From positions 1-33,193 of the IMG/VR virus record IMGVR_UViG_3300007734_000592: a stretch of DNA of 33,193 nucleotides; one strand, written 5' to 3'. The DNA comes from a virus. A model generated the notes under the pieces. That model saw only the letters and a list, made by a program, of their open reading frames with translations. It searched no databases and was not told the DNA's origin. A program made the translations under genes and the position numbers. Positions 3,481-32,811 of this stretch are shown here, in pieces. The stretch's first letter is position 1, and the number at the start of each line of letters is the position of its first letter.

Positions 3481-3939
3481 ATGGCGACAATCAGGCGTGC
3501 AACGAGTGCTGATATTGAACCGATTGTGGAAATGTGCAATCGGTTTCTGCAATACACGGAATACAGATCAGTCATCAACCCAGCAGACGGTGAGATCCAC
3601 AACGCCATGAATTTCATCCTTGAAAACGGTGCGATTTTCGTAGCCGATCAAGCTGGAGTTGTGGTTGGATTCATTGCTTGCTTCATCAGCAGTGCATGGT
3701 TTTCGGCATCCACGAAGATTGCGATGGAGATGGCCTGGTGGATGAATGAAGATCATCGCGGAGGAACGGCCGCAATTCGTTTGGTCCGGGCCTATGAAGA
3801 CTGGGCCACAAACGAAGGCGCAACATTCATCTGCATGTCGGATCTTGTGGTAAACGGAGAAACTCCAATCGCAAGGATCCTCCCAAGAATGGGATATACG
3901 ATGACAGAACGAACTCACATGAAAGGAACGCAACGATGA
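3481..3939 (+). CDS. GNAT-type N-acetyltransferase
   Basis: A 152-residue protein with a GNAT layout: TIRRATSADIEPIVEMC forms the first strand and helix; GAIFVADQAGVVVGFIACF is the paired strands; EMAWWMNEDHRGGTAAIRLV is motif A, with R-G-G-T-A as the acetyl-CoA pyrophosphate loop; LPRMGYTMTERTHMK is the C-terminal strand. It would transfer an acetyl group from acetyl-CoA to an unknown amine. Its place between terminase and portal suggests a late, virion-associated or packaging-associated role; similar placement occurs in related podophages as far as I recall. GGAG lies about eleven bases before ATG 3481. The 3' end overlaps the next start (ATGA). Confidence 0.8.
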   Translation: MATIRRATSADIEPIVEMCNRFLQYTEYRSVINPADGEIHNAMNFILENGAIFVADQAGVVVGFIACFISSAWFSASTKIAMEMAWWMNEDHRGGTAAIRLVRAYEDWATNEGATFICMSDLVVNGETPIARILPRMGYTMTERTHMKGTQR

Positions 3940-4301
3940 TTACGCTTGCATTCGTCGGTTCTACTATCGCTGCCATCGCTCTTGGTGTTGCTGCGGCGGC
4001 CGCTGCGGCTGGCACCGGATACACAATCTATGCCGGCGAGCAGGGCAAGAAGGCGCAGAAGGATGCCATGAATCGGCAGAGCGCCATGCAGGCTCAAGCT
4101 ACCCAGCAGGCGCAGCAACAGGCAACGGCATCGCAGGCTGCTATGCGGCGCAGCCAGCAGCAGGCTCCTGACGTTGCGAGCATCATGGCTGCGGCGCAGG
4201 AAAGCGGTGCTGGTGGAACATCTGGCACCATGCTCACCGGGCCTGCTGGCATTGATCCGTCGCAGTTGACCCTTGGCCGAAACACGCTTCTCGGAGGCTG
4301 A
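3936..4301 (+). CDS. Ala/Gln-rich small phage protein with N-terminal hydrophobic helix
   Basis: 121 residues. Residues about 3-30 form a very Ala-rich hydrophobic segment (LAFVGSTIAAIALGVAAAAA), then a charged and Gln-rich helix (KKAQKDAMNRQSAMQAQAT and onward), then a C-terminal tail with GTMLTGPAGIDPSQLTLGRN and TLLGG. The tail pattern (TSGTMLTGP-G...LGR-TLLG) is familiar from small proteins beside podophage portals, function unknown. The N-terminal segment could insert in a membrane, which would fit a minor virion or ejection component. It overlaps the GNAT stop by 4 bases and is followed two bases later by the portal start. Confidence 0.75.
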   Translation: MITLAFVGSTIAAIALGVAAAAAAAGTGYTIYAGEQGKKAQKDAMNRQSAMQAQATQQAQQQATASQAAMRRSQQQAPDVASIMAAAQESGAGGTSGTMLTGPAGIDPSQLTLGRNTLLGG

Positions 4302-13776: not shown

Positions 13777-15531
13777 ATGCCGACCGTACCTACATCGTTC
13801 GTACCGCAGGTTGCTCCGCAGGGCGGTGGCGACATCGGCCAGTTCCAAGCACCGCAGGTGGCAGTTGCAGAGAATCTTGCCGCTCCGCAGCAGGTGCGGT
13901 TTGGCGCAGCCATGACTGGAGCTGGAAATCAGGTGTTCCGTCTTGGTAGTGCAATTCAGGACGGCATTGATGAGGCCCAGACCAAGGCCGCCGACATCGC
14001 GTTCCTACAGCAGGCCAGCACGATGCTGCGTGGCGAACAGGGTTATCTGCGAACTTCTGGCAAGGACGCGGAGGCTCGTTATGCGTCCACGGTAGATGCC
14101 TTGACGCAGGCAGGTCAGGGCACACTTGACAGCCTCCAAAACGACACGCAGAAGTCGATGTTCAAGAATGTGCTTGCCAGGAACATGATGACGTTCCAGG
14201 CGCAGGTGCTTGACCACCGTGATAAAGAGGTCAAGGTCTTTGCCGCAAATGAGTCTCGCGCTCGGGCGGACCAGTACGCGGCGTTGGCTATTGAGGATTT
14301 TGATAATCGCGGCCAACTGTTGAGCAACTACGAAATCAATCGTGGGGTTGCCCTGAATGAATTGAAGCAGGCCGCATCGCTGTCTGGCATTCCTGAAGGG
14401 TCCGCCCAATTCACGGCGATCCAGCAGCAGCTTGACACGCAACTCACTACTGGTGTGGTGAACAGGCTGATGCTTGACAATCGCTACGACGAGGCTTACG
14501 AGTGGGTCGATGCCCAGCGCAAGGCAGGCAATTTGGAGCGCAAGGCGGGCGACAACCTGATGGCGTCCATCGACGCCAACCGTGACCGATTCCTGATTGA
14601 TGAATATGCAACGACCATCAAGGGCTATGGGCGCGTTGGTCGGCCCGACGATGAGGCCAACAACCCGCAGGACGCGCCAGCAAGCCTCCGGGACGCATTG
14701 GATGTTGCGGACGGGATCAAGGACCCCGAAATTCGCAAGGGCGTCCAGGCGGCTCTACGGACGCAATACGGGCAGGAGGAGGCTCTCCAGCGGCAAGAGT
14801 ACAACTTGCTGATCGACCGCACGGAGCAGTTCTTGGCGATTCCGGGCAATGACGTGAACAAGATTCCTTCGTCCGCTTGGGGCCGGCTGAAGCCCACCGA
14901 TCAGGCACGTTTCCTCAAGGTCCAGCGTGAGGAAGATGAATTGGGCGTCATGGAGGAGCTGGCCCGCAATCCTTCGGTGCTGACCCGTGAGTATCTTGAG
15001 GACAACCGTGGCCGCATGACGCGGCAGACCTACACCAAACTGCTGGGCGATCTGAACGCGCCTGACAAGGTGATCGCTGCCACGCTGGATGCGGACCAGG
15101 TTGAGGCGACGTTCCTTGCAAACGGAATGACTGGCCTGACAAACCCAAAAACTGACGCAGAGAAGAACGAATCGCTTACGCTGCGAAATATGTTCAAGGC
15201 GCAGATTGATGACATGCAGAGCGCAATGAAGCGCCCGCTGAATCGCACCGAGAAGCAACGGGTGCTGGATCAGGTCATCATGCAGTACAACGAGAAGGCC
15301 ATTGAACCAGACTGGTACTTTGACAACGAGATGCGACTTGGTGCCATGACCGCAGAGCAGCGCCAGACCGCATACATCATGGTCGGAAAGAATCGCGTCA
15401 CTCTGTCCAGCATGCCACAGTCGTGGGTGGCCAACGTGGCGGTGCCAGAGTTTCGCAAGGCAGGCGTCACAAATCCGACTATGCAGCAGATCGCCGACTA
15501 TTGGCTTCGAAAGGGCAGGCCATCCGAATGA
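13777..15531 (+). CDS. internal virion protein (T7 gp15-like)
   Basis: 584 residues, mostly alpha-helical and hydrophilic. A Pro/Gln-rich start is followed by helices such as DEAQTKAADIAFLQQASTML, a GYLRTSGKDAEARYAS segment, and DNRYDEAYEWVDAQRKAGNL. This is the usual appearance of gp15-like ejection proteins, and the position between gp14-like and the giant gp16-position gene is decisive. In T7 the gp15/gp16 complex spans the periplasm during DNA entry. Its TGA overlaps the next ATG (ATGA at 15528). Confidence 0.8.
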   Translation: MPTVPTSFVPQVAPQGGGDIGQFQAPQVAVAENLAAPQQVRFGAAMTGAGNQVFRLGSAIQDGIDEAQTKAADIAFLQQASTMLRGEQGYLRTSGKDAEARYASTVDALTQAGQGTLDSLQNDTQKSMFKNVLARNMMTFQAQVLDHRDKEVKVFAANESRARADQYAALAIEDFDNRGQLLSNYEINRGVALNELKQAASLSGIPEGSAQFTAIQQQLDTQLTTGVVNRLMLDNRYDEAYEWVDAQRKAGNLERKAGDNLMASIDANRDRFLIDEYATTIKGYGRVGRPDDEANNPQDAPASLRDALDVADGIKDPEIRKGVQAALRTQYGQEEALQRQEYNLLIDRTEQFLAIPGNDVNKIPSSAWGRLKPTDQARFLKVQREEDELGVMEELARNPSVLTREYLEDNRGRMTRQTYTKLLGDLNAPDKVIAATLDADQVEATFLANGMTGLTNPKTDAEKNESLTLRNMFKAQIDDMQSAMKRPLNRTEKQRVLDQVIMQYNEKAIEPDWYFDNEMRLGAMTAEQRQTAYIMVGKNRVTLSSMPQSWVANVAVPEFRKAGVTNPTMQQIADYWLRKGRPSE

Positions 15532-18500
15532 TTCCGTTCACGCCAGACGAGCGCCGAGCGCAGTTCGCACCCTCGCAGAATGTCGGCGGTGCGGTGGACC
15601 GCGATGTGCTGGACATCATCGGAGCGCAACCACAGCAGACAATGGCGGGGCAAGTCGATTACGACGTGCCAGACATCAAGCCGGTCGATCCCGATGTTGT
15701 AGACATTGTGAACAAGAACCAGGGTCCGCTCATGGCGTCTCTTATGGGCGCATCAAAGGTGAATCCGGATCAAGCGGCAGAGGCCAGGCGGCTCGGCTCG
15801 CAGATTGGCATTGGGCAGGACATTGCGCTGCGGAACATGGACGAGGTGCGCCAGCGTGCGTTCATGGCCGAGGTGCAGCGCCGTGACATCGCTCGCGCAA
15901 ACCCGGTGCTGGCAGGCTTCCTGACCGACCGGACATTTGCTAACCAGGCGAGCGACGATATTGGAACACTCGACCGTATTGGATTGTTCTTCGAGGACAT
16001 TGGCCGTGCGGCTGCTGGCAGGCCAATGGAATATACGGCTGGAGAACTGGTGCGCGGATATATGCGCGGCCAACTCGTCGCAGAGCGTGGAGAAATTGGT
16101 ACTAGGGCAATCTTGGGAGAGGCGGAAGAAACGAACTTTGCTCGTGCCAAGCAGATCCAACAGGAGATGCGTGCTCTTACTGGCGGTGGCATCCTTGCAT
16201 CGACTGCAGAAGTCGTGGCGCAGAATGTGGCGCAGGCGCGAGAAGTTGTTGGAGCGGGGTTGATTGGTGGCGCAGCGGGATCGGTAGTCCCTGGTATTGG
16301 AACAATGACGGGATTTGCTGGCGGTTTGGGAACTGGAATTGTTTTGACAACGGCAAAAATGGAAGCAGGAAACCTGTATTTGGACCTTCAGGAACAGGGG
16401 ATTAGTGATGACACGGCAGTGCCAATTGCTGTTGGCGCTGGATTGCTGAACGGCGTTATTGAAGAGGTGGGAATGAAAATCGCCTCGGCACCGTTTCGCC
16501 AGTTGGCGAGCCGCGTGATGCGTGAGCAAATTGCAGAAGCGGTACGAAAGCCAATGATGCGCTCCGCGCTGGCGGCAGCCGGTAAGGCGTATGTTGTCCA
16601 GGTTGGATCAGAGGCGGCAGAGGAAGGCTTGCAAGAGATTGTGAACATTGCCGGCGAGGAACTTGCCAAGGGCATGGAGGGCATCGACAGCGAAACGACC
16701 ATGCGCGATGCGGCCAAGCGAGTGCTGGATTCGTTTGTGCAAGGAGCAATGGGCGGGTCAATTCTTGGCGGTATCGGCCCCGGCGCGAACCTATATGTCG
16801 ATCTTCGGCGCGCCAACAAGGCCACGAAGCAAACACAGTTCTTCAATGATCTTTCAAAGAACGCCACCGAGTCAAAGCTCAAGGCGCGAGATGCGGGTGC
16901 ATACGAAAGGTTCGTGTCCGCGACGGCTGACGGAACTGGCGCTGAAACGGTGTTCGTGGATGGCGCGACCATGCGGGACGTGCTGACGCAGGCTGGCGTT
17001 ACGGACGCGCAACTGGAGGCAATCGTTCCGGGCGTGGCCCAGCAGGTGCGGCAGGCCACAGAACTTGGCAATGACGTGACGCTGCCTACCGCGCAGTTCG
17101 CTGGACGACTTGCTGGAACGCCGCTTGGCGATGCGCTGTTGCCGCACATGCGCCTGTCGCCTGACGCCATGAGCGCGATGGAGGCGCAGCAGTTTGAGCA
17201 GAGCCGCGAGGCGTTGGTTGAGGAGGCTCGTGCGCTGCTTGAGGCCAAGACCGAGGCAGAGAGCGCATTCGTGCAGGAGGCTGATCAGGTCGCTACCACG
17301 ATGCGCGATCGGCTCATCGCGGTTGGTCGCGATCCGGCATTGGCCGAGGTGGAGTCGCTGGTGCATCAGGCGTTTGTGGTCACACAGGCTGCGCGTCAGG
17401 GCAAGACTCCGGCACAGTTTGAGGCCGAGAGCGGACTGCGTGAAATCGTCGGCGCGGAGATGCCAGCCGCGCCGCTTGAGCAGGCGGCGACGGTAAATGT
17501 CTGGGGCGTGGCAACACCGCAGTATCGCCGTGCGTGGCACAAGGCAACAACCGGACAGCCAATTACCGTGACCACATGGCATTCGCCTGGTGGAACTAGG
17601 GCAGCACAATTGACAGACTTTGCGCGTGAGCGAATGGGCCGCGACACGACGCTTGGCGGTGGTTGGTACGGCGCCCGAGATCGTGACATTGCCGAGATTT
17701 ATGGAACACCACAGGCATTTGAAGTCACGCTTCAGAACCCATATGTGTTCAGCGAAGCCGACAAGAACTTTGTGCTGAAGTTGACCAACGAAGAATTGCA
17801 ATGGATTCGTGATGCCGGATACGACGGCATCATCGTGAAAGGGGTGAATGCGACGCTGCAAGGACAGGATCGTTCGCATCTGCAAGTAGTCGCGTTCAAT
17901 CCCGGAACTGCGGTTCGCCAAGCCGCGCCAGGCATCATGGAGCAGGCGGCGGTTCCTGCATCGCTTGACGCCGTTGCAAACGTTGAGTCCGCATTCGCAT
18001 TCGCCGGAACGAAGGCATTCAAGACGAATCGTGAGTTCAAGCAGGAGCTGCAAGACCGAGTCCTTTCTGCTGCCAAGGATGCCGGAATTGACCTTTCGCA
18101 ATTCACTCCGGAAGTAGAGCAGTACCTTGTTCGTGTCGCTGTTGCGGACGCCATCACCGCACTCCGCACAAATCCCAACGCTGTCGGCTGGTACAACGAG
18201 AAAGTCACCAAGGCGCTGCGATTGGTATCACTTGTTCACCCAGAAATCGCAACTGAGCCGCAAGCCAAATTCGCGTTCACCTGGGCGCTCGCGGTCACAT
18301 CGAACGGCTTGGAAGTCAACAAGAACTTCCAACTCGCGGAGCGCGTCTATCGCGAGTACAAGCAGACCGGGCAAATGCCGACGAATGTGCAGGCCGGCCA
18401 GGCACAGATTGCCATCAACGCCAGTCTTGGCCTGTTCAACGATCTCGTGGCGAAATACGGGATCGATGCGGTTGAGCAATTTATGACTACCAAGGCCACC

Positions 18501-21500
18501 GTCAAGGAGGTCATGTCATACACGAACAAAAACGTGAGCGGAGAGAATCTTACGACGGAGGTGTACGGTGCTGCTGCTCTTGGCCCGAAAATCGGAAACG
18601 GGTTCTTTGCAAACCTATACGGCCACTTTGAGCAGTTGACGATGGATCGGTGGCTGATGCGCACCTGGGGCCGCTGGACGGGAACGCTGCTTGATGACAA
18701 CAGGACGAACATCGCGACGAAGCGCAAGCAACTTTCGTCCATGATCAAGGCAATGAGCGCCGATGATAAGAAGGCGTTTGAAAAGATCCTTGGATCGAAA
18801 CTGGCCATCAGCAAGCCCGATGATGTCGCCGTGGCAATCCAGAAGGCAAGCGTCAAGCCAGCGAACAGAATAGACATGGCCAGAATCGGAATCGCTGATG
18901 CAGCGGCACTGGAAACATTTGCAATGATTCTCGGAGAGCCTGCGCGTGGCATCCAGCGTGTGTCATTTGGCGACGAGCTGCGCAAGGTCGGAAATGCGCT
19001 TGCCAAATATCTAGACGGTCAAAAGGAAGCTCCGAGTGGCCCGCCAGAGCGTGCGCGCATTCGTCAAGTTATGTCGCAGGTGCTTGCTGAATTGCAGACG
19101 CAATTTCCGAGCCTGACGATGAGCGACTTGCAGGCGTTGCTGTGGTATCCAGAGAAGCGGCTTTATGACGCTGCAAAGACTGCGGATGAAGGCAAGACTG
19201 GTTATGAGGACAATGAGGCGCCTGATTATGCAAATGCGGCAGCGAATTTGGCGCGGTCGCAAGGCATTTCGGATGCTGACATCAATGCTACAATCGGAGA
19301 AGTCGATGAAGAACTATCAGCCATATCCAGAGAGCGCGCAGCAGGAGCAGAACGAGGACTTGGAGAACTCGTTCTTCGCCAAGCTGCTGGGGGTGCAGGA
19401 GGTCGATTTGAGCAAGCAGCTCGCGGCCCAGCCCGAGGCGGATACGACCCCTCGCGCCTGAAGATCCTGTTCGGCAAGGGCGCTGACTTCACAACCGGCG
19501 CTCACGAACTGACGCACTATTACGTCGATTACTACACCAAGCAGGCGATGGCTGGCACGGCTACTCCGCAGATGCTCGCGGACTTGGACGCCATGTTCAA
19601 GTTCATGGGCGTTGCTGGCGACACGCCAGAGGCACGAATGGCGGCATTCAACGCCATGCCGTTTGAAACCGCTAGGCCGTTGATCGAAACGATCACCTAC
19701 AACGCGGAGATTTATCTGTTTGAGGGCAAGGCTCCCAGCCTTGAGTTGGCCGGCGTGTTCGACCGCATGCTGGCGTTCTTCCGCAGGGCGTACAAGTCGC
19801 TGGCTGACTTCGTGACGCAGCAGCAAGAGATTTACCGCCGGGAGTTCGGGCGGGAGCTTCCTGCCCTGAACGATGACCTACGAGCGGTATTCGACCGGAT
19901 GTTGGCCGACGAGCGTCAGATCAAGCAGGCCCAGGCCGTGGCCCAGATGCGAGGCCAGTTCACCGTCAAGCCAGAGGGCATGGACGATGCCGAATGGGCG
20001 GCGTACCAAGAGATGGCCGGCGAGGCCACGAACGCGGCTATTGCCGATATGACCAAGGCCAGCCTGCGTCAGATGGAATGGCTCTCAAGGGCGCGCAGCC
20101 GAATCATCAAGGACATGCAGGCGCGGCACACGGCCCAGCGCAAAGAGGTCAGGGAGCGGGTGCAGAAGGATGTCCAGCAGGAGCCGTTGTACCGGGCTAT
20201 GGCGTTCCTGCGCCGTGGTCAGGTGGTGGCACCGGACGGGACGGTTACGGAGGCCGAGGGCGTTTACAAGATTGACCGGGTGCTGGCAGCAGAGTTTGCG
20301 CCCACGGTGGACCTGGTGCGTCTTGGCGGGCGCTACGGCGTCCTACAGGACGATGGGCTGCATCCTGACATCGTGGCCGAGATGTTTGGCTATCCGACCG
20401 GCGGAACGCTCCTAGAGGCATTGGCGGCGGCCAAGCCCATGCGGGAGGCGGTGGAGGACCGTACGGACGCCGAGATGCTGCGGTTGTATGGCGAAATGAA
20501 CACGCCGGAGGCCCGTGAGCAGGAGATCCAAAAGGCGCTCCACAACGAGGCCAGGGCGAGGTTGGTGGGCGTCGAATTGCGTTTCATGGGCAAGATCCAA
20601 CAGCCTGTTCGTGTGCTGATGGAGGCTGCCCGTCAGGCCGCGAAGCAGGTCATCGACCGCAAGATCGTGCGAGACATTAGGCCGAGCGAGTTCGTGGCTG
20701 CCGAGGCAAAGGCTGCCCGCGAGGCCACGGCTGCGATGCAGGACAACAAGCCCGACGTGGCGGTTCGCGCCAAGCGGGCGCAGCTCCTCAACAACCAGTT
20801 GGCGAAGGCTGCGCTTGAGGTCAAGGACGAAATTGACGACGGCGTGCGTTATCTACGCCGGGTACTGCGCGACAGCAACCGACAGCGCATGGGCGCGGAT
20901 GTTGCAGACCAAATCGCCAGTCTGTTGGATCGGTTCAACATCGCGCCGATGACGGCCGACGAGGCCCGCCGCGTCGGAACGCTGGCCGAGTTCTTGGCAT
21001 CGCTTGAGGATCGCGGCCTGGTCCCGGACATTGCCGAGGCCATCGGAATGCGTGACACGCGCATACCGTACAAGAACACGACCATTGCGGAATTCCGCGA
21101 TTTGGTCGATGCTGTCAAGCAACTGGAGTACGTCGGCAAGAACGAGCGCAAGATCCTTCTGGCAAAGGAGAAGGCGGAGTTCGGTGCCGTGCGCGATCAG
21201 ATCGTCGCCAGCGTGATTGAGAATGCCGGCGACCGCAAGGCAAATGCTAGAACGGCTACGACCAACATCGGCAGGGCTGTAACTGCGATGAAGGGATTTG
21301 CTGCCGCGCACCTAAAGGCGGCATCCATTGTCAGAATTTTGGACGGTGGCAAGGATGGCGGCCCGTTGTGGAATTACCTCATCCGGTCGGCAAACGAAGC
21401 CGGCGACACCGAAACAAGTATGCGGGCCGAGGCGACCGCCGAACTGACCAAGATCATTGAACCTGTGTTTCGCGCTGGCAAGCTCGGCGGCAAGGGCGTG

Positions 21501-23219
21501 TTCTACCCGTCTATCAATCGCAGCCTGAACCGAGAGGCTCGCCTGGTCGTGGCCCTGAACATGGGAAACGCTGGCAACATGCAGCGCCTACTTGATGGAG
21601 AGGGCTGGAGCATGGAGGCGGTCATGCCCGTGCTGCAATCGCTGACGGAGGACGAACTGAATACGGTGCAGCAGATTTGGGACTACTTTGAGAAGTACCG
21701 CCCAATGATCGGCCAGAAGGAGCGACGGCTGTATGGCAAGGAGCCGTCATGGGTGGAGCCGCAGCCGCTTGTGGTTCGGTCTGCGGACGGCAAGACGGTT
21801 ACGCTTCGCGGTGGCTACTACCCGATCAAATACGACTCCCGAGCAAGTCTGCGAGCCGAAACGATGTCCGAGGCCGACGAAGCCAAGCGGGACCTGGCTG
21901 GTGCGTACACCACGGCTACTACGCGGCGCAGTTTCGTGAAGGCGCGTGTTCGCAAGGTTGAGGGGCGCCCACTGCTCTACACGCTGGCAGGCATGTACGG
22001 CGGCATCAACGATGTCATCCACGACCTGACGTGGCATGAATGGCTGATTCAGGCCAACCGTCTGATGCGGTCCAATTCTTTCGATGACGCGGTTCGCAAC
22101 CGTTACGGGCCGGAGTATGTAGCGCAACTCAAGAACTGGATCAAGGACGTTGCTTCCGGCGAGCGTGGCGTGCAAAACGAGGCCGAGATGGCTTTGAACT
22201 TCCTGCGGCAGGGCATTAGCTCTGCCGGCCTCGGATTCAACATTGTCAGCGCGGCCATGCAGATCACTGGCTTCAACCAGTCCATTGTGCGAGTCGGTGC
22301 AAGGTGGATTGGTCGCGGAATCGCATATGTCGCGCAGAATCCAATGATTGCGATGCGAGAGGTGAACGAGAAGTCGGAATTCATGCGGAACCGCAGCCGC
22401 ACGCAGTTTCGTGAGTTGAACGAGATTCGGAACATGGTGCAAGGCCAAAGTGTCGCCATGCGCCGTGTGCAGATGGGCACCTACTTCCTGATGATGCGTA
22501 TGCAGCGCATGGTCGATGTCCCGACCTGGCATGGTGCCTATGAGAAGGCGATGTACGAAGGGCGCGATGAGGAAACTGCCATTGCGCTCGCGGACCAGGC
22601 GGTGATCGACTCGCAGGGCGGAGGCATGGTCAAGGATCTTGCTCGCGTGGAGCGCGGCGGTCCTGCGGTCAAGTTGTTCACTGTGTTCTATGGGTACATG
22701 AACACGGTCTACAACATGGCTGCCGTGCAGACGATGACGAACAAGAACAAGGGCAAACTGGCTGCTGATTACGCCATGCTGTTCGTTGTTCCAGTTGTCT
22801 TGTCCTACATGCTGAAGCAGGCGCTCATTCCACGCAAGGGCGACGAGGATGAGGAGTGGGACATGGGCAAGATTGGACGCGAGCTGGCAGCCGAGCAACT
22901 GTCATACCTCATGGGCACAATGGTCATTGCTCGGGAGTTTGGCGAGGTAGGCAAGAGGATCTTTGGGGTCGAAGGTCCGCGCATGGGCTATGGCGGTCCC
23001 GCAGGACTGCGAGCAATTGGTGAGACATACCAGTTCGCCACACAGGCATCGCAAGGTGAATTCGACACCGCGTTCCGCAAGTCGGCGGTCAATATGATCG
23101 GGGCATTCACTGGCCTACCAAGCGCCCAGGTGAATCGCACGATTGATGGGCTTGAGGCTCTGTACGAGGGCGAAACACAGAATGTTCTGGCACCTCTGAC
23201 CGGAGCAAAGAAGCGATGA
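15528..23219 (+). CDS. giant polyvalent ejection protein (gp16 position) with ART-like and HELTH metallopeptidase domains
   Basis: 2563 residues, far longer than T7 gp16 (about 1300). The start ATG 15528 overlaps the previous stop (ATGA); the GTG at 15423 is rejected because it lies inside the upstream gene. In order: hydrophobic Gly-rich stretch about 240-270; ADP-ribosyltransferase-like domain about 683-801 (TWHSPGG, GGGWYGARDRDIAEIYG, NPYVF, GYDGIIV, QVVAFNP); a helical polyvalent-protein-type domain about 837-1060 ending near DRWLMRTWGRW; DLQALLWYPEKRLYDAAK about 1190-1210; zincin domain with HELTH at 1326-1330 and likely third ligand near E1394 (AEIYLFEGKAPS); long charged helices; and a C-terminal hydrophobic segment about 2411-2436 (YAMLFVVPVVLSYMLKQAL). 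No lytic transglycosylase motif is seen. Inference: it enters the cell with the DNA, and its enzymes act on host proteins. Confidence 0.85.
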   Translation: MIPFTPDERRAQFAPSQNVGGAVDRDVLDIIGAQPQQTMAGQVDYDVPDIKPVDPDVVDIVNKNQGPLMASLMGASKVNPDQAAEARRLGSQIGIGQDIALRNMDEVRQRAFMAEVQRRDIARANPVLAGFLTDRTFANQASDDIGTLDRIGLFFEDIGRAAAGRPMEYTAGELVRGYMRGQLVAERGEIGTRAILGEAEETNFARAKQIQQEMRALTGGGILASTAEVVAQNVAQAREVVGAGLIGGAAGSVVPGIGTMTGFAGGLGTGIVLTTAKMEAGNLYLDLQEQGISDDTAVPIAVGAGLLNGVIEEVGMKIASAPFRQLASRVMREQIAEAVRKPMMRSALAAAGKAYVVQVGSEAAEEGLQEIVNIAGEELAKGMEGIDSETTMRDAAKRVLDSFVQGAMGGSILGGIGPGANLYVDLRRANKATKQTQFFNDLSKNATESKLKARDAGAYERFVSATADGTGAETVFVDGATMRDVLTQAGVTDAQLEAIVPGVAQQVRQATELGNDVTLPTAQFAGRLAGTPLGDALLPHMRLSPDAMSAMEAQQFEQSREALVEEARALLEAKTEAESAFVQEADQVATTMRDRLIAVGRDPALAEVESLVHQAFVVTQAARQGKTPAQFEAESGLREIVGAEMPAAPLEQAATVNVWGVATPQYRRAWHKATTGQPITVTTWHSPGGTRAAQLTDFARERMGRDTTLGGGWYGARDRDIAEIYGTPQAFEVTLQNPYVFSEADKNFVLKLTNEELQWIRDAGYDGIIVKGVNATLQGQDRSHLQVVAFNPGTAVRQAAPGIMEQAAVPASLDAVANVESAFAFAGTKAFKTNREFKQELQDRVLSAAKDAGIDLSQFTPEVEQYLVRVAVADAITALRTNPNAVGWYNEKVTKALRLVSLVHPEIATEPQAKFAFTWALAVTSNGLEVNKNFQLAERVYREYKQTGQMPTNVQAGQAQIAINASLGLFNDLVAKYGIDAVEQFMTTKATVKEVMSYTNKNVSGENLTTEVYGAAALGPKIGNGFFANLYGHFEQLTMDRWLMRTWGRWTGTLLDDNRTNIATKRKQLSSMIKAMSADDKKAFEKILGSKLAISKPDDVAVAIQKASVKPANRIDMARIGIADAAALETFAMILGEPARGIQRVSFGDELRKVGNALAKYLDGQKEAPSGPPERARIRQVMSQVLAELQTQFPSLTMSDLQALLWYPEKRLYDAAKTADEGKTGYEDNEAPDYANAAANLARSQGISDADINATIGEVDEELSAISRERAAGAERGLGELVLRQAAGGAGGRFEQAARGPARGGYDPSRLKILFGKGADFTTGAHELTHYYVDYYTKQAMAGTATPQMLADLDAMFKFMGVAGDTPEARMAAFNAMPFETARPLIETITYNAEIYLFEGKAPSLELAGVFDRMLAFFRRAYKSLADFVTQQQEIYRREFGRELPALNDDLRAVFDRMLADERQIKQAQAVAQMRGQFTVKPEGMDDAEWAAYQEMAGEATNAAIADMTKASLRQMEWLSRARSRIIKDMQARHTAQRKEVRERVQKDVQQEPLYRAMAFLRRGQVVAPDGTVTEAEGVYKIDRVLAAEFAPTVDLVRLGGRYGVLQDDGLHPDIVAEMFGYPTGGTLLEALAAAKPMREAVEDRTDAEMLRLYGEMNTPEAREQEIQKALHNEARARLVGVELRFMGKIQQPVRVLMEAARQAAKQVIDRKIVRDIRPSEFVAAEAKAAREATAAMQDNKPDVAVRAKRAQLLNNQLAKAALEVKDEIDDGVRYLRRVLRDSNRQRMGADVADQIASLLDRFNIAPMTADEARRVGTLAEFLASLEDRGLVPDIAEAIGMRDTRIPYKNTTIAEFRDLVDAVKQLEYVGKNERKILLAKEKAEFGAVRDQIVASVIENAGDRKANARTATTNIGRAVTAMKGFAAAHLKAASIVRILDGGKDGGPLWNYLIRSANEAGDTETSMRAEATAELTKIIEPVFRAGKLGGKGVFYPSINRSLNREARLVVALNMGNAGNMQRLLDGEGWSMEAVMPVLQSLTEDELNTVQQIWDYFEKYRPMIGQKERRLYGKEPSWVEPQPLVVRSADGKTVTLRGGYYPIKYDSRASLRAETMSEADEAKRDLAGAYTTATTRRSFVKARVRKVEGRPLLYTLAGMYGGINDVIHDLTWHEWLIQANRLMRSNSFDDAVRNRYGPEYVAQLKNWIKDVASGERGVQNEAEMALNFLRQGISSAGLGFNIVSAAMQITGFNQSIVRVGARWIGRGIAYVAQNPMIAMREVNEKSEFMRNRSRTQFRELNEIRNMVQGQSVAMRRVQMGTYFLMMRMQRMVDVPTWHGAYEKAMYEGRDEETAIALADQAVIDSQGGGMVKDLARVERGGPAVKLFTVFYGYMNTVYNMAAVQTMTNKNKGKLAADYAMLFVVPVVLSYMLKQALIPRKGDEDEEWDMGKIGRELAAEQLSYLMGTMVIAREFGEVGKRIFGVEGPRMGYGGPAGLRAIGETYQFATQASQGEFDTAFRKSAVNMIGAFTGLPSAQVNRTIDGLEALYEGETQNVLAPLTGAKKR

Positions 23220-29707: not shown

Positions 29708-30025
29708 TTATAAAACTTCTCTGAAACCGAGATTTCGTGCGCTAGCGGATGTCTTTCCGGTCATACGGCGCATTAGGCGGTCTGCTGCCATCGGGTCCAT
29801 GCTTGAACCGCGTCGCGCCGGCATACCATGACGGATGTTTAGAATGTTTCTCAACTCATCTGCAAACAGTACGTCACCTGACTCTGTTAGGGTCAGCATT
29901 GTGCGCAGAGCATCATGCACGGCTGCGATGTCGGCAGCAACGCGGGCGTGACCATGTGCGTTCATATGGCCTTGCGCGCTAATTAGAACATCCATCAGGT
30001 TTGGTGGTCTTGTAGGTGTCGGCAT
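29708..30025 (-). CDS. hypothetical protein at the end of the leftward cluster
   Basis: About 105 residues from ATG 30025, or 85 from ATG 29965, which has AAGG at a good distance. TTG 30049 and ATG 30034 are further options. Helical and Arg/Met/Ala-rich: HARVAADIAAVHDALRTMLT, ESGDVLFADELRNILNIRHG, MDPMAADRLMRRMTGKTSAS. No family recognised. It lies just downstream of a leftward intrinsic terminator, so it is either expressed by read-through or has its own promoter, which I could not identify. Confidence 0.55.
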   Translation of the reverse strand: MPTPTRPPNLMDVLISAQGHMNAHGHARVAADIAAVHDALRTMLTLTESGDVLFADELRNILNIRHGMPARRGSSMDPMAADRLMRRMTGKTSASARNLGFREVL

Positions 30026-30046
30026 CCTTGCCATGCGCGGAGAATA

Positions 30047-30079
30047 CAAAACCCCGACCTGACGGAAGCCAGGCCGGGG
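30047..30079 (-). terminator. intrinsic terminator for the leftward operon
   Basis: On the minus strand the stem is CCCCG + CCTG paired with CAGG + CGGGG, with one internal mismatch and an 8-base loop, followed by TTTTG. It begins 26 bases after the stop of the gene ending at 30106. The T run lies only on the minus-strand side, so it serves leftward transcription. Confidence 0.8.
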
Positions 30080-30105
30080 CGCAGGGAGAACATACCTCCA
30101 CGATT

Positions 30106-30600
30106 CTACATTGAGACGGTGCGGTGTTCGCCAAAGATGTTTTGCACGTCGGCACTAGGCGACCAGCGGGCCACCCATGCTCCATCTTTGGAAAGCCACG
30201 TTTCGTTTCCCGAACCATCGATCCGCGCAATGGCATACATGATTTCGCTGGCTGCTCGGCATCCACGTCCGAGCATGTCCATCTCTAATTCAATTGACTT
30301 TGCGATGATCGGACCCAAAGGTGAATCCGAGGTCACAATGTCCTGACGCAGGGACTCAAGGTCTTGAATAGATAGCGTATGGACAGTTCCGTAATCACTG
30401 TGCCCAAGCATGATCCATGCGATATGGGTCGCTTCCCACGGAATTGCTTGGTCATGCCACAGGATCGTGCGATTCTGCGAGATTGAAAGCGCCTGCGACC
30501 CTTTTGAAACAACTCGCATCTGCCCCTCTAGCCGGCGATTGAACCTGAACATAAGCAGAGCCAGGCCAATGAGTAGTGAAATAATGATCCATTCAGTCAT
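30106..30600 (-). CDS. membrane-anchored hypothetical protein, 164 aa
   Basis: Starts MTEWIIISLLIGLALLMFRF followed by NRR: one N-terminal membrane helix with positive residues on its C-terminal side, then about 140 soluble residues (SISQNRTILWHDQAIPWEAT, LESLRQDIVTSDSPLGPIIA, RCxAASEIMYAI-type helix, ETWLSKDGAWVARWSP). The charge pattern predicts a cytoplasmic C-domain. GGAG lies six bases before ATG 30600; the longer open frame upstream (to 30705) overlaps the preceding gene and is rejected. Not recognised. It is last in a four-gene overlapping operon before the terminator, which hints that it works with the small membrane protein at 30916-31050. Confidence 0.65.
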   Translation of the reverse strand: MTEWIIISLLIGLALLMFRFNRRLEGQMRVVSKGSQALSISQNRTILWHDQAIPWEATHIAWIMLGHSDYGTVHTLSIQDLESLRQDIVTSDSPLGPIIAKSIELEMDMLGRGCRAASEIMYAIARIDGSGNETWLSKDGAWVARWSPSADVQNIFGEHRTVSM

Positions 30601-30919
30601 TTTCCACTCCAAGCCTGGCGTCAACCGATGCCAGCAGCTCTCTAGCATCCACCAGCATTTGCTCGCTGCGTGGATGTGGATTTTCGCCAAGCGATGCGTC
30701 AGCATCAGCCTGCACCTGGCAGCGAATCACATGCTGGTAGACGATCACCCTGCACCGGGCGAGGATTCGGTGCAACAGTTCCTCCTCGACCACTGCATTT
30801 TGTGATGCTCCGCGCAACTGGTGAAGTGTGGATGTGCTGACAAACTGAACTGCTTTGGGATCATTTCCTGCCGTGGGAATCGTGGACAGAATGTCAGAGA
30901 CGGTTTGTGTTGGGGTCAT
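30593..30919 (-). CDS. hypothetical soluble protein, 108 aa
   Basis: Begins MTPTQTVSDILSTIPTAGND. It is mainly helical: STLHQLRGASQNAVVEEELL, HRILARCRVIVYQHVIRCQV, QMLVDARELLASVDARLGVE. No motif recognised. ATG 30919 overlaps the stop of the upstream gene (ATGA); ATG 30931 with AAGGA nine bases upstream is an alternative start. Its own stop overlaps the next gene by 8 bases. Confidence 0.65.
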   Translation of the reverse strand: MTPTQTVSDILSTIPTAGNDPKAVQFVSTSTLHQLRGASQNAVVEEELLHRILARCRVIVYQHVIRCQVQADADASLGENPHPRSEQMLVDARELLASVDARLGVEND

Positions 30920-31050
30920 GGCACGAGCCATTGTAGGTAATCCTTGCTCCATGCTCCCGCTAGGAAGCCTGCGATTGAAAGGGCACCGAACGCATAGCCG
31001 AGGTAAAAGTCAGTCAGACTCGGCTCACGAACACGTTGTGGCTGATTCAC
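30916..31050 (-). CDS. 44-residue single-span membrane protein
   Basis: GTG 31050 overlaps the stop of the gene before it (GTGA), and its own stop overlaps the next ATG (ATGA), so both junctions support it despite its size. Sequence: NQPQRVREPSLTDFYLGYAF, then GALSIAGFLAGAWSKDYLQW and LVP. One membrane helix spans about residues 15-34, with a basic N-terminus. Function unknown. Small membrane proteins in phage operons of this type can be exclusion or inhibitor proteins, but that is only a possibility. Confidence 0.65.
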   Translation of the reverse strand: MNQPQRVREPSLTDFYLGYAFGALSIAGFLAGAWSKDYLQWLVP

Positions 31051-31293: not shown

Positions 31294-31342
31294 GCCAGCA
31301 ACGCGCTGGCTGGTATGGCATCGGTCAGCTACGTCGCTGACC
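31294..31342. other. two perfect short inverted repeats between leftward genes
   Basis: GCCAGC-N5-GCTGGC (31294-31310) lies in the gap after the HTH gene. GGTCAGC-N6-GCTGACC (31323-31342) spans the stop codon of that gene. Neither is followed by a T run on either strand. They may be operators, RNA stability hairpins or a weak attenuator between the regulator and the four-gene unit. Confidence 0.45.
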
Positions 31343-31552
31343 TTTACGAAATTCTTTGTGATATCCGAAAGTGGACAGCGCCTCGCCGAGTTTTTGAATC
31401 GCACTGGTGTGGTGGAACTGTGCCTGCTCAACGGTCAATCCCATGACCTCTGCGCATTCCTCAATTGATCGAAGCGGCTCCGCCGGCCGCAGGCGCATCT
31501 CGCCATCGCGCTGTCGCCGGGCCTGGGTGTGGTCAACAATGCGAATTCTCAT
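31325..31552 (-). CDS. sigma-region-4-like helix-turn-helix protein
   Basis: 75 residues. The C-terminal half PLRSIEECAEVMGLTVEQAQ followed by FHHTSAIQKLGEALSTFG has the form of sigma70 region 4 or a related HTH (SLEEIGEALGLS-ERVRQI-xxALxKL). The N-terminus MRIRIVDHTQARRQRDGEMR is basic. It is too short to be a full sigma factor and is likely a transcription regulator of the neighbouring divergent region. ATG 31552 has no ribosome site and lies exactly where the leftward promoter below would begin transcription; GTG 31576 is a less likely start. It heads the leftward cluster. Confidence 0.7.
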   Translation of the reverse strand: MRIRIVDHTQARRQRDGEMRLRPAEPLRSIEECAEVMGLTVEQAQFHHTSAIQKLGEALSTFGYHKEFRKGQRRS

Positions 31553-31558
31553 ATCTGC

Positions 31559-31586
31559 AATGTACCTGCGCGGCACGCAATGTCAA
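31559..31586 (-). promoter_or_regulatory. leftward sigma70-type promoter
   Basis: On the minus strand TTGACA (31586-31581, exact consensus) is followed after 16 bases by TACATT (31564-31559, four of six). Six bases then separate the -10 box from ATG 31552, so transcription would begin at or next to the A of the start codon: a leaderless message. Confidence 0.6.
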
Positions 31587-31726: not shown

Positions 31727-31743
31727 CAACACAGGAGAACACC

Positions 31744-32811
31744 ATGACGATTGCAAAGATGGATAGTGACACGATGGGCTTGATTGCCCGAACCGTGGCG
31801 AAGGGCTGCTCGCCGGACGAGCTGGCCCTGTTTGGTCAGATTTGCCAGCGCACTGGACTGGACCCGTTTGCTCGCCAGATTTACGCCGTGAAGCGTTGGG
31901 ATAGCCGCGAGAAGCGCGAGGTAATGCAGACGCAGGTCAGCATCGACGGCGCACGCCTGACGGCCCAGCGCAGCGGCGAGTACGCGGGCCAGGCAGGCCC
32001 GTTTTGGTGCGGCGACGATGGCGTGTGGAAGGACGTGTGGCTGTCGCCGACGCCGCCGGTAGCGGCCAAGGTGGGCGTCTACCGCCGTGGATTTACCGAG
32101 GCTTTGTACGCCGTGGCGATGTGGCGCGAGTACGCACAGAAGGGCAAGGAAGGCCAGTTGATCGGCATGTGGCCCAAGATGCCGAGCCTGATGCTGGCGA
32201 AGTGCGCCGAGATGCTAGCCCTGCGCAAGGCATTCCCGGCCGAACTCTCGGGCCTCTACACCGCCGAGGAAATGGGCCAGGCCGAGAACGATCTACCCGT
32301 GCCTGCTCCGGCAGTAACGCCGAAGGCCGTGAACATTCTGTCTACAGTTGTTGATAACTTTAGTACAATCGAACCAGAACCCGTCCAAACGCAGCAGGAT
32401 GCGCCACAATCCATTTCTGCTCCCAAGGCTACCAAGACACCACCCAAGGCCAAGGAACCCGCCACGGCGGTTCCTAGCGCGTTTGGCGAGGTGTTGGCAT
32501 CTAGGCCGCCAAAGGATTGCGCGTGGCGTGGAGGGTTGACCATCAGGCGTGTTGGACAGGGTAAGCCCACCGCCAAGGGGTCGAATCGCTACCCCATCCT
32601 GCTGGATGTTGGCGGTACAGAGCAATGGGCAAGTTGCTTTGATGACAAGGTGATGCAAGCCGCGCAGGATGCTTTGGGCGGCCAGGCAGTGTCGGGGTTT
32701 GTGCAGGAGGGCCAGTACGGATGGACTCTGTACGGAATCCGAACCGTGTTAGAATCTACCGAGCAGCAGTCCGCGCCAGTCGCGGTTGCGGAAGACGACA
32801 TTCCGTTCTGA
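31744..32811 (+). CDS. bet: Bet/RecT-family single-strand annealase with extra C-terminal domain and SSB-like tail
   Basis: 355 residues. Residues 1-180 match phage recombination protein Bet: [61 protein letters not shown], and [20 protein letters not shown] with GLYTAEEM. These proteins anneal single-stranded DNA in phage recombination. A Pro/Ala/Thr-rich linker (about 181-245) leads to a second domain (about 246-338; [43 protein letters not shown]), which is beta-like and possibly an OB fold. The last residues AEDDIPF match the acidic tail with which bacterial SSB recruits partners. AGGAG precedes ATG 31744 by six bases. No exonuclease partner is seen in the window. Confidence 0.85.

Follow-up and report, generated by a model that had tools for sequence, protein, structure and literature searches.

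A RecT-family phage annealase carrying a predicted OB-fold domain and an SSB-like acidic tail

The gene examined here encodes a RecT-family annealase extended by a disordered linker, a predicted OB-fold domain, and an acidic tail of the kind that ends single-stranded DNA-binding proteins (SSBs). We consider it probable that the common phage pair of an annealase gene and an SSB gene has been joined here into one protein. The annealase families RecT and ERF are known; no natural annealase–SSB fusion was found in the open literature searched. The window, that is, the whole stretch of DNA analysed, corresponds to a linear contig from IMG/VR (IMGVR_UViG_3300007734_000592, 33193 bases) that carries a phage head-tail adaptor (phrog_332). 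The contig stops about 380 bases 3' of the fused gene and so lacks the remainder of the early region.

Domain organization of the fused annealase

The open reading frame runs from ATG to TGA and encodes a product of 355 aa with the final residues AEDDIPF (Table 1). The sequence-only reading had described a Bet domain, a linker, a second domain, and this terminus, and the open reading frame, profile matches, and structural models confirmed that layout. The N-terminal domain matched Pfam RecT (PF03837; 2.4e-31; 109 bits against a cut-off of 24), NCBIfam bet_lambda (TIGR01913; 5e-31; 108 against a cut-off of 77), and PHROG 2780, annotated as "RecT-like ssDNA annealing protein" (3.5e-67). Foldseek related its fold to the N-terminal fold of lambda Red-beta (PDB ID: 7ujl; E 2.1e-5, probability 1.00). 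The ERF profile PF04404 gave no match in the window protein, RecT being the sole match of the N-terminal domain, which is a member of the RecT family.

Table 1. Features of the fused annealase gene and its surroundings in the window
Feature	Position	Strand	Basis
Ribosome-binding site AGGAG, 5' of ATG	31733..31737	+	Read directly from sequence
Whole fused gene, 355 aa and TGA	31744..32811	+	ORF reading
RecT/Bet annealase domain, residues 5-183	31756..32292	+	Pfam RecT, phrog_2780, Foldseek to Red-beta 7ujl
Pro/Ala/Lys-rich disordered linker, residues 184-246	32293..32481	+	pLDDT <50
Exchange boundary versus ERF-type annealases, within linker	about 32344-32404	+	DNA identity step versus L014, L016
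Predicted OB-fold domain, residues 247-336	32482..32751	+	AlphaFold2 models, Foldseek, VIA-align
Variable spacer, OB fold to tail	32752..32787	+	High-entropy alignment columns
SSB-like acidic tail AEDDIPF, residues 349-355	32788..32808	+	IPF invariant across fused copies
Next gene, Gp157/Gam-like, 5' part only (contig end)	33064..33193	+	phrog_253, 3.3e-21

The full protein was modelled with AlphaFold2 using 28 sequences. The RecT domain was predicted with a pLDDT of about 90, and residues 182-246 and the tail were disordered. The C-terminal domain (pLDDT of about 85) comprised strands at residues 260-270, 281-289, and 292-298, a helix at 301-309, and strands at 315-323 and 326-334; modelling of this domain alone returned the identical strand-strand-strand-helix-strand-strand order, which is the OB topology. 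Foldseek searches with the C-terminal domain matched SSB, RPA, and PriB, with E-values of only 3e-3 to 1e-2, and VIA-align gave Z-scores of 8-9.8 to SilF, PriB, Rim1, Bartonella SSB, mitochondrial SSB, and the B subunits of AB5 toxins. Structure prediction, which the sequence-only reading had proposed as a check for an OB fold, yielded an OB-like C-terminal domain. The SSBs themselves scored Z of about 8.0-8.6, with other OB proteins alongside. With SilF and AB5 B subunits among the best VIA-align matches, the fold can be called OB in a general sense but not specifically SSB, and we rejected the fold matches as proof of an SSB because unrelated OB folds rank equally high.

The C-terminal domain belonged to no family in Pfam, PHROG, or NCBIfam, the SSB profile PF00436 gave no match in the window protein at E-values up to 1, and a profile of the OB domain searched against PDB sequences gave no relevant match, with no solved SSB among those matched. 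Because the PF00436 test failed, we did not assign the domain to the SSB family. As modelled, the domain nevertheless looks as if it would work like an SSB, and ssDNA binding by it is likely. A strand-loop-strand element, G-K-x-T-x-x-G-x-x-R-[YW], is conserved in the OB domain and could plausibly contact nucleic acid.

Distribution of the OB domain and conservation of its tail

We scanned 2.9 million viral contigs with the whole protein, the C-terminal domain, an alignment of the C-terminal domain, and the ERF domain. The window-type OB domain was present in 25 contigs including the window, being linked to RecT in six (the window, L002-L005, and L105) and to an ERF-type annealase in 19 (L014, L016-L018, L070-L078, L099-L102, L104, and L112), where the ERF assignment rests on PF04404 matches of L075 and L018 (7e-7 and 9e-8, respectively) and, for the remaining contigs, on similarity; L118, whose frame is broken, was left out. 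None of the 25 contigs from these scans carried a free-standing copy of the OB domain. Searches of named phages with the OB domain gave no match, and searches of named phages and plasmids with an ERF-fused protein gave no relevant match.

The DNA identity between the window and L014 was at background level (about 20-50%) up to position 32404, where it stepped from about 40-55% to about 82%, and L016 behaved likewise. This step lies inside the linker and shows that the OB domain and tail move as a module. The window OB domain was 89.5% identical to that of ERF-fused L014 and 55.8% identical to that of RecT-fused L005, and the RecT domains of the window and L005 were 92.9% identical. These identities require that the cassette passed between annealase families at least once. 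A first tree implied two changes between RecT and ERF and hence more than one independent exchange, but when the long L112 branch was left out, a single change was not rejected, and we therefore claim only one. The distribution of the fusion among relatives, which the sequence-only reading had proposed to survey, extends over two annealase families, RecT and ERF-type; the occurrence of the cassette on the latter, which that reading had not noted, best supports the view that it is a functional module.

That reading had named a tail not conserved in homologues as evidence against itself. On this count it stands: all 25 contigs with the window-type OB domain end in IPF, at OB identities down to about 41-47%; the most divergent copy, that of L112 (41-47% identity), ends in AEEHIPF. 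The residue before the Ile varies (D, E, H, or G), the I, P, and F are constant in all fused copies while their codons vary synonymously (ATT/ATC and CCG/CCA), and the spacer 5' of the tail is variable in both sequence and length. At a minimum length of 80 aa, the fetched loci yielded 2634 distinct ORFs; an [ILV]PF end was present in 33 of these, and acidic residues directly precede it in 32. Nearly all of these 32 ORFs (L060 aside) were fused annealases or annealase-adjacent SSB-like genes, and the non-fused ones were for the most part SSB-like genes neighbouring an annealase (L011, L012, L081, and L143, with the small proteins of L027 and L119). On these counts, we rejected a chance origin of the tail. 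The IPF tail was found on none of the 30 RecT or ERF matches read in 299 Pseudomonadota genomes, and the tail as a general annealase trait is hence rejected for Pseudomonadota.

Other arrangements were observed around related annealases. A second kind of RecT fusion (L008:2980-4029, L009:2980-4038, and L153:2-517) has an apparently different OB-like C-terminal domain and a tail of the DD-x-x-IPF type (VDDAAIPF or VDDASIPF); comparison of the window OB domain with the L008 and L009 C-terminal domains (RecT with VDDAAIPF) gave an hhalign probability of 7% and a HMMER E-value of 0.015 among five sequences, and we therefore claim no common origin for them. In L007:1986-3041, RecT is followed by a C-terminal domain that is OB-like by eye and carries no SSB tail, and L024:2932-4842 encodes a RecT protein of 636 aa with long additional segments at its C-terminus. 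Two small unannotated proteins adjoining unfused RecT genes (L027:3846-4079, 78 aa; L119:2439-2732, 98 aa) are alike by eye, end in DEIPF and DDVPF, respectively, and may represent an unrecognised mini-SSB family.

Genomic context of the fused genes

The SSB profile PF00436 matched nowhere in the window. Among contigs with an OB-and-tail fusion, 0 of 23 (a count that includes L008 and L009 of the second fusion kind) had a PF00436 SSB, compared with 17 of 28 unfused annealase relatives (Fisher p 2e-6, uncorrected for kinship); the contigs are linear and possibly incomplete, and the search, by PF00436 alone, is blind to divergent SSBs, 11 of the 28 unfused relatives likewise having no match. Since the fused contigs are close kin, the association counts few independent events. 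In unfused relatives (L011, L013, L027, and L081), SSB-like genes with IPF, LPF, or VPF tails lie near the annealase. The earlier proposal, that annealing and SSB functions are joined in one chain that could recruit host SSB partners itself, is partly supported: the C-terminal domain is OB-like, its tail is retained by every homologue carrying the domain, and a separate SSB gene was not recognised in any of the fused contigs examined; ssDNA binding by the domain and docking of the tail on host SSB partners are predicted.

The exonuclease profile DUF3799 matched in 0 of 16 fused contigs and, among 13 comparison contigs that included L008 and L009, exceeded its cut-off in six; in the relatives L006, L010, L036, and L081, a DUF3799 exonuclease gene adjoins RecT. 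YqaJ exonuclease was absent from the contigs tested, the 16 fused contigs included. In the relative L155, the counterpart of the truncated next gene is a full-length Gp157 (L155:83-598; Sipho_Gp157, PF05565; 1.9e-25), followed by a C5 methylase, HNH, and RusA, with no exonuclease among the Pfam matches of this early region. Almost 80% of erf genes in Firmicutes phages are associated with ssb, and either gam or gp157 lies next to them (PMC8093625). Given this association and the Gp157-like gene that follows the fused gene, the locus appears to be this module in a form in which two of its genes have become one.

Elsewhere in the window, a block of minus-strand ORFs without an assigned family (29708-30952) separates the tail genes from the annealase, and two of these ORFs are conserved in the relatives L084 and L086. 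A small protein encoded at 31325-31576 (minus strand), and in L086 at 3847-4092 (minus strand), contains a motif, SIEECAEVMGL...SAIQKLG, that resembles sigma-70 region 4 by eye and has no Pfam or PHROG match. The sole match of the 2598-aa protein encoded at 15423-23219 (plus strand) was LPD22 (large polyvalent protein associated domain; residues 110-196).

Proposed function and comparison with known systems

In the mechanism that we propose, the RecT domain would anneal complementary strands, the flexible linker would carry the OB domain, and the OB domain would most likely grip ssDNA in cis. The acidic IPF tail would mimic the SSB C-terminus, dock on proteins with a pocket for the SSB tail, and so bring partners to the annealing site. 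With an SSB function of its own, the protein could stay on ssDNA without first displacing host SSB. That two annealase families carry one tail type speaks for a partner outside the protein, presumably host SSB-binding proteins, rather than for a pocket on the annealase; host genome-maintenance proteins are thus slightly favoured as tail partners over the annealase domain itself. A more specific version, in which a portable OB-IPF cassette on two annealase families enlists host RecO, PriA, RecJ, ExoI, and RecQ through the tail at phage annealing sites and thereby replaces both phage SSB and phage exonuclease, is unlikely as a whole.

The tail could instead be internal, docking within its own chain on the RecT domain, or on adjacent subunits, and loading or restraining the annealase with no involvement of host partners. 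There is a precedent in phage HK620, whose SSB tail acts on its own annealase Sak4 and whose removal turns stimulation into inhibition (PMC5928155), and on account of this case we retain the reading that the tail serves the annealase and not host proteins. The presence of one OB domain and tail on both RecT and ERF, which have different Pfam profiles, fits an outside partner better, and the tail resembles ordinary bacterial SSB tails (EDDIPF and EDEIPF); we regard an internal tail as somewhat unlikely. In a further reading, the OB domain serves protein binding or oligomerisation, and the tail is no docking motif but simply an acidic terminus in competition with DNA, which would be autoinhibitory. 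Many proteins that do not bind DNA have OB folds, in keeping with the SilF and AB5 B subunits among the top VIA-align matches, but a plain acidic end needs no hydrophobic IPF, which is constant while the preceding acidic positions vary, and the conserved G-K-x-T-x-x-G-x-x-R-[YW] would suit nucleic-acid contact. We consider this reading very improbable.

A special case of the preferred fusion explanation is that the tail recruits host SSB-binding nucleases and helicases (RecJ, ExoI, and RecQ) to make single strands in place of a missing phage exonuclease. The lack of DUF3799 and YqaJ in all 16 fused contigs tested, and of a Pfam exonuclease in the L155 early region, would agree with this, but L008 and L009 retain an exonuclease gene beside a tailed RecT fusion of the second kind, DUF3799 and YqaJ were the exonuclease families looked for singly, and many phages with other annealases have no dedicated exonuclease. 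Such recruitment is quite unlikely.

The protein can be set beside several known systems. It is like RecT/Red-beta in its N-terminal domain, by profile and fold, and differs in its C-terminal domain, which is OB-like with an SSB-type tail, whereas Red-beta has a three-helix domain there, with host SSB and lambda exonuclease as its binding partners; the Red-beta variant K253A loses the SSB contact, and recombination in vivo is nearly abolished (PMC8303780). The SSB tail limits the hosts of RecT proteins, and annealases such as Red-beta perform best where they recognise the tail of the host SSB, a restriction on recombineering in bacteria other than E. coli (PMC10711431). A natural annealase that supplies an SSB-like domain and tail itself may escape this restriction, and since the cassette exists on two annealase families, its effect is open to direct test by addition or removal. 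ERF-type annealases (PF04404) carry the window-type OB domain and tail on 19 contigs, while the window protein itself is a RecT; unlike these ERF-fused proteins, no ERF match that was read in Pseudomonadota genomes ends in IPF. A C-terminal domain common to several annealase superfamilies has been described, a helix-turn-helix remotely like the Red-beta C-terminal domain (PMC8093625), and differs from the predicted OB fold and SSB tail shuffled here.

Bacterial and phage SSBs (PF00436) likewise have a flexible acidic tail with a terminal IPF behind their OB fold; the window C-terminal domain differs in giving no PF00436 sequence match and in being fused behind an annealase. HK620 Sak4 and its SSB are similarly an annealase working with a tailed SSB, whose last six residues, NDYPPF, are needed to stimulate Sak4 in vitro and in recombineering (PMC5928155). 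There, the two proteins are encoded by separate genes, Sak4 is RecA-like, and the SSB belongs to DUF669. In the phage annealase–SSB module, the two functions occupy neighbouring genes; in the window, both parts stand in one chain and no separate SSB was recognised.
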